Shown: in pieces, positions 70 to 62,264 of the stretch
Layout: each line of letters begins with the position of its first letter
Position numbering within the stretch: the first letter of the stretch is position 1
Source of the DNA: Halorussus ruber
Lineage (GTDB): Archaea > Halobacteriota > Halobacteria > Halobacteriales > Haladaptataceae
Assembly (NCBI RefSeq): GCF_004765785.1
Contig: NZ_ML219768.1
Coordinates: 124,001-188,000 of the forward strand
DNA: 64,000 bases
Reading direction: 5' to 3'
The notes under the pieces: generated by a model
Told to the model about the DNA's origin: nothing
What the model saw: only the letters and a program-made list of their open reading frames with translations
Databases searched by the model: none
Made by a program: the position numbers and the translations under genes

Positions 70-162
70 GTGGAACTGGAAGAAATAACTACCTATGTTT
101 TAGAAACTATTTAGTATATCTAAGCATCTTATATGTGTCTTGGTTACAGCGACGATAGTTTC

Positions 163-317
163 GAAAGCCCTCGCGCGGTTCGCGGTCGCTCAGCGGGATA
201 TTTCCGGACCTCGCTTCGCTCGGCCCGGAAATAGTGGCCCGCTGAGACGACCACGCCCTTCGGGCGCGAACCGCGCTCGCCCTTTCAGTCCGCCGAGGAA
301 GTCGGTTGCTCCACCGA
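163..317 (+). ncRNA. Structured repeat element, family A, copy 1
   Basis: The element can fold into nested helices. P1 is GAAAG 163-167 with CTTTC 282-286. P2 is 11 perfect pairs, 173-183 with 266-276. P3 is 184-188 with 248-252, then CTCAGCGGG 189-197 with CCCGCTGAG 238-246, then TTTCCGG 201-207 with CCGGAAA 225-231. P4 is GCCC 255-258 with GGGC 262-265. A 3' hairpin pairs 302-306 with 313-317. Two more copies (17082-17236 minus, 62113-62264 plus) keep the helices while changing the bases, so pairing rather than sequence is conserved. A TATA-like CTTATATG at about 129-136 lies some 25 bases ahead of the conserved start, which suggests its own transcript. It lies between genes, just upstream of the deaminase at 413. 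I cannot assign a named RNA family; a palindromic DNA element is the alternative. Confidence 0.6.
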
Positions 318-412
318 GCGACGTGCGTGGATGGCGGCCCGTAGCTGAACACCACCCGCTCCAACTCCGAATCAACAGCTATTTGCCGAACTCGGTTCCT
401 ACTCGTTCCGGG

Positions 413-3990: not shown

Positions 3991-5034
3991 ATGAGTCGCG
4001 CCGACGGGTCCGAGGCCGCGAGCGTGCCCTCGGTGCCGGACGCGGACGTCCTCGACGGGATGGTGGACGACGAAGCGCCGGACCCCCGCGAGGAGCTAGC
4101 GAAGACAGAGTACCGGACCGACCTCGGCCTCGCCATGGCCGAGGACGCCAAGCGCGTCGCCAAGGGCGAACTCTCGGGCGACGCCTACTGGGAGAAGTAC
4201 GACGAGGCCGCGGAGGCCGAGTTCGGCGACGACTACCGAGAGACCCCGAACCCCGCCATCGACGCCGACGGCGCGCGCCAGACCGTCTCGCGCGAGACGG
4301 CCGAGAATCTGGGCTGTTCGGTCGGGTCGATGGCGTCGGTCGCCGAGTCGATGGCGAGCGAGGCGGGCGCGGAGGGCGAGGCGGGAGACGCCCCCGCGGG
4401 CGACGAGAAGTGGGGCATGGTCATCGACCTCCAGAAGTGCGTGGGGTGTGACTCCTGCACGGTGGCGTGCAAGGCCGAGAACCGCACCCCGCCGGGGGTC
4501 TCGTACAACGTCGTGATGGAGGAGGAACACGGCGAGTTCCCGAACGTCACGCGCACCAACGTCCCCCGGCCCTGCATGCAGTGTGAGAACCCGCCCTGCG
4601 TGCAGGTCTGTCCCGTCTCGGCGACCTACAAGATGGACAACGGCGTCGTCAACGTGGACTACGACCGGTGTATCGGCTGTCGGTACTGCATGATAGCCTG
4701 TCCCTACGGCGCGCGGTACTTCGACTTCGGCGACAACTACGACGACGAAGTGATTGGGAGCGGCGAGGTCACGAGTCCGGAGTACGGCGTGGACCGCGGT
4801 CCCCGAGAGGACGGCAAGTCCCCGGTCGGTAACGTCCGGAAATGTAGCATGTGCATGCACCGACTGAACCGCGGCGAGGAGCCTGCCTGCGTCGAGACGT
4901 GCGTGGGAGACGCCCGGAACGCGGGCGACCTGAACGACCCCGAGAGCGAGGTGTCGGAGCTGGCCGAGTCGAACCGGTCGTTCCAGCTCAAGGAGTCGGA
5001 GGGGACCGACCCGAACGTCTACTACCTCAAATAG
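3991..5034 (+). CDS. Four-cluster ferredoxin subunit of a molybdoenzyme (TtrB/DmsB/PsrB type)
   Basis: A 347-aa iron-sulfur protein that passes electrons between the membrane subunit and the molybdenum subunit. The ferredoxin core holds four Cys groups: CVGCDSCTVAC, CMQCENPPCVQVC, CIGCRYCMIAC, and CSMCMHR with a later CVETC, enough for four [4Fe-4S] clusters. The core begins at about residue 145. The first ~145 residues are an unusual acidic extension with no recognised domain and no signal peptide. The protein presumably crosses the membrane with the Tat-bearing partner at 6397. ATG 3991 has GGAGGTG at 3978-3984; an in-frame GTG at 3982 overlaps that site and is less likely. It is the first gene of the operon and ends 4 bases before the next. 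Confidence 0.85.
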   Translation: MSRADGSEAASVPSVPDADVLDGMVDDEAPDPREELAKTEYRTDLGLAMAEDAKRVAKGELSGDAYWEKYDEAAEAEFGDDYRETPNPAIDADGARQTVSRETAENLGCSVGSMASVAESMASEAGAEGEAGDAPAGDEKWGMVIDLQKCVGCDSCTVACKAENRTPPGVSYNVVMEEEHGEFPNVTRTNVPRPCMQCENPPCVQVCPVSATYKMDNGVVNVDYDRCIGCRYCMIACPYGARYFDFGDNYDDEVIGSGEVTSPEYGVDRGPREDGKSPVGNVRKCSMCMHRLNRGEEPACVETCVGDARNAGDLNDPESEVSELAESNRSFQLKESEGTDPNVYYLK

Positions 5035-15966: not shown

Positions 15967-16995
15967 TCAGATTTCTTCGCTTGAATCGCCGACGTAGACG
16001 TACGTCTTCGACGTTCGCGGCCCCTCGACCTCGATTTCGGGGAGGACCGCGAGCCACGTCCGTATCGCGCTACTCCGGCGTCGAACGCTCGACTCCGAGA
16101 GGTCGGCGGTCTCCTCGGTTATCAGGTCGTCTATCTCGGCTTTGGTGAGCTCGCCAGCGCCCGCGACCGCCGAGCGAACGCGCTCGACAAGACCGACACT
16201 CCGGATTTTGCGCTGGAGTATCGTCTGGGCCTCGGACGACTCGGGCGTCGCGTTCAGGTAGTCCGCGCCCGTCGGCGTCAGTCCCCACCGCTGGCGGTCG
16301 TCGCCCGCGGTTGACGGCTCTTTGCGAGCGAGACCGAGGACGACCGCCGAGTTGGCGTTGATACGGGCGTGACGGTCTGAGAGGTCGTAGTCGGTGAACT
16401 CGGCGGTCCAGCGACGGATGCTCTCGACGGTTCCGTCCGTGGCCCGAATCGCCCGGAGCGCGTCCCGAACCCTGTCGAGGTTGTTACCGAGAGGCACCTC
16501 GCTCGCGGGAATCTGCTCGTCGCTCTCCGAGAGGTTCCGCCAGAAGTCAGGGTCGAGGTCGTAGCTTCCGTCTGTCTGGGTCACGCCGATGCCGGTCCGG
16601 AGCATCGACTCGGTGAGGTCCGCGCCGGAGACCAGTTGTATCGGTAACTCCTCGGCGGTCTTTCTCGCGGGACCGCTGTAGGAACTCGTGGTGACGAAGG
16701 TGCCGAGACTGTAGTCGTTCTCGGTGAGCGCGCCAGCGAGGCGGTGGACGCGGTCGTTTCCGACGACGTTGCCCCGACCGTACCGCTTGACCTGCACGCC
16801 GAAGTCGGCGGCGAACCAATCGTAGTCGAGTCGCCCCTCGATGTCGATACCGCCGTCTTGCGAGGCAGGGGTGACCGCCAGACTCGTCGTCCGAAGGCTC
16901 CGGTCGAGGACCGCCTTGCAGAGGACCTCGAACTCCTGCGGCGAGAGTTCGAGCAGACGGTCGAGCAGTCGGTCCTGCGCCGCCGAGGTAGCCAT
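15967..16995 (-). CDS. Mrr-type restriction endonuclease-like protein
   Basis: A 342-aa DNA nuclease candidate. The N-terminal domain (about 1-125) has the Mrr catalytic pattern: ELSPQEFEVLCKAVL, then DGGIDIEG near 47-54, then VQVKRYG near 67-73, giving the D-x(n)-Q/E-x-K site. The middle and C-terminal parts (about 175-335) look like winged-helix DNA-binding modules. This is the reverse of the usual Mrr order, where the winged helix comes first. It may be a type IV (modification-dependent) restriction enzyme or a repair nuclease. No methylase gene is nearby. Confidence 0.75.
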   Translation of the reverse strand: MATSAAQDRLLDRLLELSPQEFEVLCKAVLDRSLRTTSLAVTPASQDGGIDIEGRLDYDWFAADFGVQVKRYGRGNVVGNDRVHRLAGALTENDYSLGTFVTTSSYSGPARKTAEELPIQLVSGADLTESMLRTGIGVTQTDGSYDLDPDFWRNLSESDEQIPASEVPLGNNLDRVRDALRAIRATDGTVESIRRWTAEFTDYDLSDRHARINANSAVVLGLARKEPSTAGDDRQRWGLTPTGADYLNATPESSEAQTILQRKIRSVGLVERVRSAVAGAGELTKAEIDDLITEETADLSESSVRRRSSAIRTWLAVLPEIEVEGPRTSKTYVYVGDSSEEI

Positions 16996-17081: not shown

Positions 17082-17236
17082 TCGGGGCGACAACCGACTC
17101 CTGGTGGACTGAAAGGGCGAGCGGGGTTCGCGGGCCGGAGGCCTGTGGTCGCCTCAGCGACCCCTATCGCGGACCGGGCCGTGCAGAGAGGTCCGCGATA
17201 TGTCGCTGAGCGACCGCGAACCGCGCGAGGGCTTTC
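17082..17236 (-). ncRNA. Structured repeat element, family A, copy 2
   Basis: On the minus strand it repeats the fold of copy 1: P1 17232-17236 with 17111-17115; P2 17216-17226 with 17121-17131 (one mismatch); P3 17211-17215 with 17147-17151, 17202-17210 with 17153-17161, and ten pairs 17190-17199 with 17166-17175; P4 GGCC 17140-17143 with 17133-17136; 3' hairpin 17094-17097 with 17082-17085. Relative to copy 1, both sides of P3 change together (CAGCGGG/CCCGCTG becomes CAGCGAC/GTCGCTG) and the apical stem is fully replaced yet still pairs. It lies between the Mrr gene and a small gene at 17344. Confidence 0.6.
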
Positions 17237-17343
17237 GAAACTGTAATTCCAGATTCGTTCGCTTATCTACCCACTCCTGATCGGCAAACTGCTCTCCTCG
17301 ACAGAATCCTCAAAAGTCCCCGGACCGTAATCTTACCTACCGA

Positions 17344-61929: not shown

Positions 61930-62112
61930 ATCGGGAGCCTAACCACGTTTCTTTTATCGGCGTTAACGGTATAGAGCTATGCTTGTCGTTGTTTGAGCAA
62001 TAATTATGATTGTTAGAGTAGTGTATATGTGGGTCTGAAACCGTTATCTATTCGCTTCAATCCGGTCTGACTGCAACCTCTAACCGGAGAATCGTGGCTA
62101 TGAACACTTTTT

Positions 62113-62264
62113 GAAGCCCCCGCCCGCTCGCGGTCGCTCTGCGGGATATTTCCGCGCTCTCCGCACCGCCCGCGCGGAAATAGTGGCCCGCAGAGACGAC
62201 CACGGGCCTGACGGCCCGCGACCGGGCGGCCCCTTCATCCCGCCCGAATCGGTTGATTCGCCGA
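62113..62264 (+). ncRNA. Structured repeat element, family A, copy 3
   Basis: P1 GAAG 62113-62116 with CTTC 62233-62236; P2 62120-62131 with 62218-62229 (11 of 12 pairs), differing from copy 1 on both sides; P3 62132-62136 with 62197-62201, CTCTGCGGG 62137-62145 with CCCGCAGAG 62187-62195 (A to T and T to A in pairing positions), TTTCCGCGC 62149-62157 with GCGCGGAAA 62172-62180; P4 62204-62208 with 62213-62217; 3' hairpin 62249-62252 with 62261-62264. It fills the gap before rpiA; 61930-62112 is AT-rich with no gene. Confidence 0.6.

Follow-up and report, generated by a model that had tools for sequence, protein, structure and literature searches.

Integron attC sites are single strands that fold with some bases left unpaired and with a terminal hairpin that varies, and they lie in arrays beside the integron integrase; MITEs carry the terminal inverted repeats of an autonomous transposon, often together with a target duplication, and REP elements are associated with a RAYT transposase. 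According to the accessible part of the respective source, REPs are 20–40 bp in size (PMC3733652), and Haloquadratum walsbyi contains many copies of SMR-A, a non-coding element of about 110 bp with inverted-repeat ends (PMC3119063). The accessible part of the latter paper further states that SMR types commonly exceed 95% identity within a type, that SMR-A causes no target duplication and inserts into PATE/IS605 palindromes, and that PATEs (palindrome-associated transposable elements) have near-terminal palindromes related to IS605-type ends and no inverted terminal repeats (PMC3119063).

The window analyzed here, a stretch of 64,000 nt (bases 124001–188000 of contig 3 in the 4.3 Mb genome of Halorussus ruber), contains three copies of a repeat for which a preliminary description had proposed one shared fold (Table 1). 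This fold is confirmed by a covariance model built from nine sequences (R1; copy 1 belongs to its training set), which matches all three copies, and the P3 pairs are those quoted in the preliminary description. The common fold starts with P1 (GAAAG/CTTTC), followed by an internal loop rich in pyrimidines and by P2; next come a junction, in some cases with a small hairpin in its 3′ arm, P3 with a bulged A, a second internal loop made up of an A opposite AGTGG or AGGG, and a P4 hairpin of variable sequence. The ends of the repeat are fixed (GAAAGCCC...CCCTTTCAGTCC), with GAAAG/CTTTC being paired in 98% of the cells of alignment A5 (see below). Comparing the folding of copy 1 with that of shuffles gives a z of −4.7, and both strands of the repeat give stable folds. 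Core lengths range from 111 to 194 bp (median 132) among 79 cores of the own genome and from 105 to 132 bp in many other genomes; overall the unit measures about 105–150 bases. Two of the unpaired boxes described as kept have to be amended: ATAG, reported for copies 1 and 3, is also found in copy 2, and the 3′ box reads exactly GTCGGTTG in copy 1 and copy 2, and ATCGGTTG in copy 3.

Table 1. Copies of the repeat in the window, elements of copy 1 and the gene next to copy 2 (window positions)
Feature	Position	Strand	Remarks
Copy 1, core (A-type unit)	159-295	+	R1 163 bits, R2 147 bits; in the training sets of both models
Copy 2, core	17102-17240	-	R1 122.9 bits
Copy 3, core	62108-62245	+	Variant with shorter P2; R1 84.6 bits (match at 62109-62245), R2 97.8 bits
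Copy 1, leader	121-158	+	Weak conservation across copies
Copy 1, P1 5′ arm GAAAG	163-167	+	Partner 282-286
Copy 1, pyrimidine-rich internal loop, 5′ side	168-172	+	Facing 277-281
Copy 1, P2 5′ arm	173-183	+	Partner 266-276
Copy 1, P3 5′ arm GGTCG-CTCAGCGGG	184-197	+	Partners 248-252 and 238-246; A247 bulged
Copy 1, conserved internal loop	A198 and 234-237	+	Adjoins P4
Copy 1, P4 5′ arm	199-207	+	Partner 225-233
Copy 1, optional small hairpin, 3′ arm	255-265	+	Short or absent in many copies
Copy 1, trailer	296-345	+	Weak conservation across copies; GTCGGTTG at 301-308
Gene beside copy 2	15967-16995	-	Protein with Mrr-type restriction endonuclease domain

As alignments made with MAFFT alone misplaced gaps in P2 and P4, the first model was built from nine hand-picked sequences; it recovered the remaining copies. 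Alignment A5 comprises 85 matches, with 80 distinct rows. Of its 3025 cells, 95.2% are paired, compared to 36–45% in slid controls, and two-sided changes occur at 38 of 39 pairs (431 cells; mean of 138 in shuffles, 37–91 in slid controls). Thus the earlier statement that paired bases change together also holds in a large alignment. A5 leans towards structure, because it was fitted to the model; however, its distance from the slid controls is still large. Of eight comparisons of diverged orthologous copies, six show more kept two-sided than one-sided changes (5:4, 9:2, 3:1, 3:1, 8:2 and 10:3), the other two being a tie (3:3) and a case with fewer two-sided changes (3:5), and a few two-sided changes in diverged orthologs break the pair. 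The stems of five closely related shared pairs differ by 10 one-sided changes (5 of G·T type, 3 of A·C type, 2 others) and by no two-sided change. The unpaired bases are conserved across genera. Selection of the repeat for base-paired structure is supported by these data.

RNA helices tolerate G·U more than A·C. The ratio of G·T to A·C mismatches in the repeat is 43:46 in A5, 23:28 in 82 rows from the own genome and 53:37 in 53 rows mostly from other genera, the latter being a weak G·T excess (p = 0.11) in an alignment that includes weak matches; the three alignments overlap in part. For 23 distinct tRNAs at the loci that scored best in seven Halorussus genomes, we counted 29:0 in 503 pairs. 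This control is generous, since both ARAGORN scoring and the use of high-scoring loci work against A·C mismatches. The contrast between repeat and tRNAs is strong (Fisher p = 7e-8 to 4e-6). The TATA-like box of the preliminary description is indeed there in copy 1, but it is not a fixed feature: profiling 78 copies revealed neither a fixed TATA box nor a terminator or T-run, and no position from −60 to −20 exceeds 65% A+T. A small-RNA gene with a fixed promoter was therefore rejected, and the small-RNA gene implied earlier finds no support in the mismatch counts or in the stable folding of both strands either. The statement that no named family matches is borne out for Rfam 15, with no match above the gathering score across the window; at a loose threshold, two microRNA models hit the surroundings of copy 1 with chance-like E-values (0.54 and 3.3). 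Because the mismatches are strand-symmetric, unlike those of tRNAs, and there is neither a fixed promoter nor an Rfam match, the selected fold is more likely one of DNA (single strand or cruciform) than of RNA. The earlier suggestion of selection on RNA or cruciform structure thus stands as regards the base pairing, with a cruciform fitting better than RNA.

The repeat is present in high copy number and its copies are dispersed over the contigs of the genome. A BLAST search with copy 1 gave 56 matches in the own genome (40 of 306 candidates scored), R1 gave 113 matches of 118 scored, and R2, built from 85 sequences, at least 147 of 150 scored candidates, so that the label of a three-copy element does not hold; the true number may even exceed 147, because as many as 147 of only 150 scored candidates match. 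Mean pairwise identity of the 79 own-genome cores is 64% (gaps counted), and identity to the nearest neighbour has a median of 84% and lies above 95% in 4 of 79. Among the family genomes, R1 matches 27 of 28 at E ≤ 0.01, with 1 to 113 matches per matching genome, and even inside one genus the copy number varies from 1 (G017) to at least 113 (G000). Within the class the repeat is widespread: at E ≤ 0.001, matches were obtained in 179 of 292 genomes (62 of 77 genera) and none in the other 113, with 11 candidates scored per genome, rough E-values and weak single matches that may be due to chance; about 71 of the 292 (our count from the listing) have an E-value of 1e-10 or better. A phylum-level sample of 294 genomes gave matches at E ≤ 1e-6 in 18, all belonging to one order. 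Carriers outside Halorussus include Halopiger goleimassiliensis and four Haloarcula species, and a plasmid of Halorussus salilacus also carries a match. Scanning contigs for an exact stem 19-mer yielded 64 stretches; all eight Halopiger and Haloarcula stretches tested contain a model match, and the two bacterial ones (Corallococcus, Ningiella) contain none. The phage records searched gave no match. A literature search that included four 12-mers of the ends, and that mostly lay outside subscription papers, returned no description of the repeat, nor do the accessible parts of two papers on archaeal repeats (PMC8044849, PMC12306157) describe it.

For the position relative to genes, called with a simple codon-usage gene caller, we started from 83 matches in own-genome stretches and left out five, namely a duplicate of copy 1, three matches truncated at a stretch end and a weak one in L024, the remaining 78 being the better-scoring part of the 147. 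Two of them, copy 1 included, lack a called gene on one side; the 76 classed copies are all intergenic (0 of 76 overlap a predicted gene). All four kinds of orientation towards the neighbouring genes occur (26, 19, 17 and 14 copies), the genes around a copy being convergent, divergent or in tandem. The median distance from the 5′ end to start codons that face it is 127 (n = 45), compared to 200 for the 3′ end (n = 36; p = 0.004), and the spacing of start codons is more even at the 5′ end, a pattern noticed post hoc.

Copies are gained and lost between close relatives. The closely related genomes G012 and G026 contain 11 and 9 copies, respectively; five loci are common to both, and at a further locus one genome has two copies where the other has a single one. 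At all three presence/absence loci tested the hairpin is missing from the relative; a clean empty site was found at none of the three, and as the adjoining spacer is unrelated or missing in the relative, element ends and target duplication are undefined there. Orthologous copies in the same place and orientation exist. At a locus beside an acyl-CoA dehydrogenase gene (gene present in 27 of 28 family genomes, model match at 5 of 28 loci), we read the sequences of G026, G017 and G024 as A-type copies, those of G000 and G010 as having B-type interiors, and those of G012 and G014 as remnants left by deletion. The outer stem of G000 is the same as that of G026; here the apical hairpin has been exchanged from A to B. 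At the site of copy 1 the core is absent from 17 loci of 16 other Halorussus genomes; in G023 a truncated element end can be made out, and G013 has a simple hairpin that shares this end (28 bits, E = 0.00017). Upstream of the copy-1 gene in a species other than that of the window stands a simple hairpin with the element 5′ end on both sides (L126, near 1262-1320), which looks as if just the outer ends remained.

Smaller modules accompany the repeat. One G012 copy holds a 51-base double hairpin that is absent from its G026 ortholog. Double-hairpin modules of about 50 bases lie inside copies at L015, L026 (between GTCCGCC and AGGA), L029 and L168 (in the 3′-arm hairpin); the orthologous copy L164 without the L168 module constitutes a natural empty site. 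Tandem 51-base units repeating the element 5′ end were seen upstream of copies (L015; L020, 1397-1500; L021, 1448-1500), and 11 of 41 loci have a second, inverted unit tail to tail within about 370 bases. A palindromic GCTAGC module, which could be a PATE-like end, stands beside copies or orthologous sites at L007, L013, L317, L318, L320, L322 and L326. The sequence GTGTTCAGATA looked plausible as a transposon terminal inverted repeat in leaders and trailers of own copies, but was set aside: it has 7 exact matches in the own genome, of which one coincides with a match of the model, and none were seen to flank an element as a pair. Neither these matches nor the three presence/absence loci revealed a transposase partner, a clean empty site or a target duplication.

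The B-type unit has the same ends and another interior, in most cases GCTGCGCTCC...GGTGCTTGCG (L107, 1862-1980; L282-L285, near 4001-4120; L321; L333). A composite query matched 61 plasmid records, and among the 40 listed 36 match via this unit. The four plasmids opened each have a small gene whose start is 28–29 bases away from the unit, and in three of them this gene is annotated as encoding a HalOD1-domain protein. The repeat itself carries no annotation in the records opened. A role as plasmid origin or transfer site was considered and discarded, as one old shared insertion in the plasmid backbone could explain the pattern.

Shared copies can change slowly. At the five loci common to G012 and G026 the cores are identical at 610 of 635 positions (96.1%; gaps, including the 51-base insert, set aside), compared to 3305 of 3782 (87.4%) in other intergenic DNA of seven locus pairs and 5612 of 6080 (92.3%) at third codon positions (Fisher p = 2e-12 and 3e-4, respectively), a result for five loci of one genome pair. 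The copy shared by L154 and L157 shows no contrast with its flanks, and in the one shared by L064 and L156 the core contains a deletion of 4 bases and some of its pairs are broken. G000 and G023 share a sixth locus, with 116 of 130 core positions identical; identity beside the core is 50–60%, in an alignment little above chance, and further out on one side 80–85% over most of the stretch and 62% in part. Re-insertion is possible at this locus, because near-identical apical hairpins stand at other loci of the genome. Some copies were probably kept in place after their insertion.

We regard it as somewhat probable that these sequences are a dispersed hairpin DNA repeat without a transposase, moved by an enzyme that reads the folded strand, with some copies then being kept. 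The unit would be a self-folding single strand whose stem, interrupted by conserved unpaired bases, bears at its top a hairpin that is free to vary; a trans-acting enzyme could recognize the folded strand and its unpaired bases and move the unit into spacers. Judged by fit, an HUH/Y1-type or tyrosine-type enzyme would suit such a strand. After insertion, some copies might be retained because the folded DNA would be useful to the host, e.g. as a supercoil-driven cruciform beside promoters, while others would be lost through hairpin deletion. Several observations speak against this reading: neither a clean empty site nor a target duplication or transposase partner came to light, the slow evolution in place at five loci of one genome pair would not be expected if insertions were idle, the stems of these five shared copies differ by one-sided changes only, and the alignment mostly of other genera has a weak G·T excess. 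A related and more tentative reading, doubtful on present evidence, sees class-wide haloarchaeal folded-DNA sites whose outer stem stays and whose apex is exchanged, which would be moved by a structure-reading enzyme and kept at particular loci as the extruded hairpin works there in topology, promoter insulation or recombination.

The slow change of the five shared copies would suit a structured haloarchaeal RNA, be it a small RNA in many copies or a cis-acting element, as would the strong covariation, the conserved unpaired bases and the TATA-like box at copy 1. However, G·T and A·C mismatches are about equally frequent, unlike in tRNAs, the 78 copies share no promoter or T-run, all four orientations occur and Rfam has no match, which makes selection as RNA improbable. 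Strand-symmetric, two-sided changes could also result, instead of from selection, from template switching and arm-templated repair in decaying MITE-like or SMR-like insertions without host function, for which presence/absence among relatives, nested hairpin insertions and the decayed L156 copy speak as well. But arm-to-arm correction should not slow change, and the shared copies change about 3-fold more slowly than other intergenic DNA, with unpaired bases kept across genera; we therefore consider mere decay unlikely. Rather unlikely, too, is a REP-like host element that would be kept at gene boundaries as a terminator, insulator or supercoil buffer and would owe its spread mostly to recombination and vertical inheritance. 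It would account for classed copies lying without exception between genes, for the tighter distance of the 5′ end to facing start codons and for orthologous copies in the same place and orientation, but less well for the mixture of convergent, divergent and tandem contexts, the range of copy numbers in one genus and the class genomes without a match.

If the reading as a mobile hairpin DNA repeat is true, archaea have an abundant repeat whose covariation reveals selection on the folding of DNA, and the symmetry of G·T and A·C counts offers a simple way to tell whether other covarying repeats are folded DNA or structured RNA. The questions of which enzyme moves the repeat and why shared copies change so slowly then arise as well. 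The data point to an overlooked family of structured, mobile repeats.

As far as SMR-A is described in the accessible part of its source, the repeat resembles it in its non-coding nature and many copies and may do so in its inverted-repeat ends and in size (about 110 bp versus 111–194 bp, median 132, for own cores and 105–132 bp in many other genomes), and small hairpin modules sit inside palindromic elements here as well; the SMR-A level of >95% identity within a type is not reached, with the nearest-neighbour values given above. The Haloquadratum plasmid PL47 (plasmid only) has no match. Going by the same partial source, PATEs and the repeat are both heterogeneous, structure-bearing haloarchaeal elements without transposase, but the repeat differs from PATEs in that its full length makes up a single hairpin of several helices, with inverted ends. 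With REPs it shares being a high-copy intergenic palindrome, whereas its cores, with their conserved unpaired bases, are far from the 20–40 bp stated in the accessible part of the REP source. The repeat is like attC sites in folding as a single strand that leaves some bases unpaired and ends in a hairpin of variable sequence; unlike attC, it is dispersed in the genome, with no cassette arrays seen. Because of its within-type identity and its size, we do not place the repeat as a member of SMR-A or of the REPs, respectively. Its nearest published kinds are the SMRs, compared by description, and the PATEs of Haloquadratum, together with bacterial REPs.
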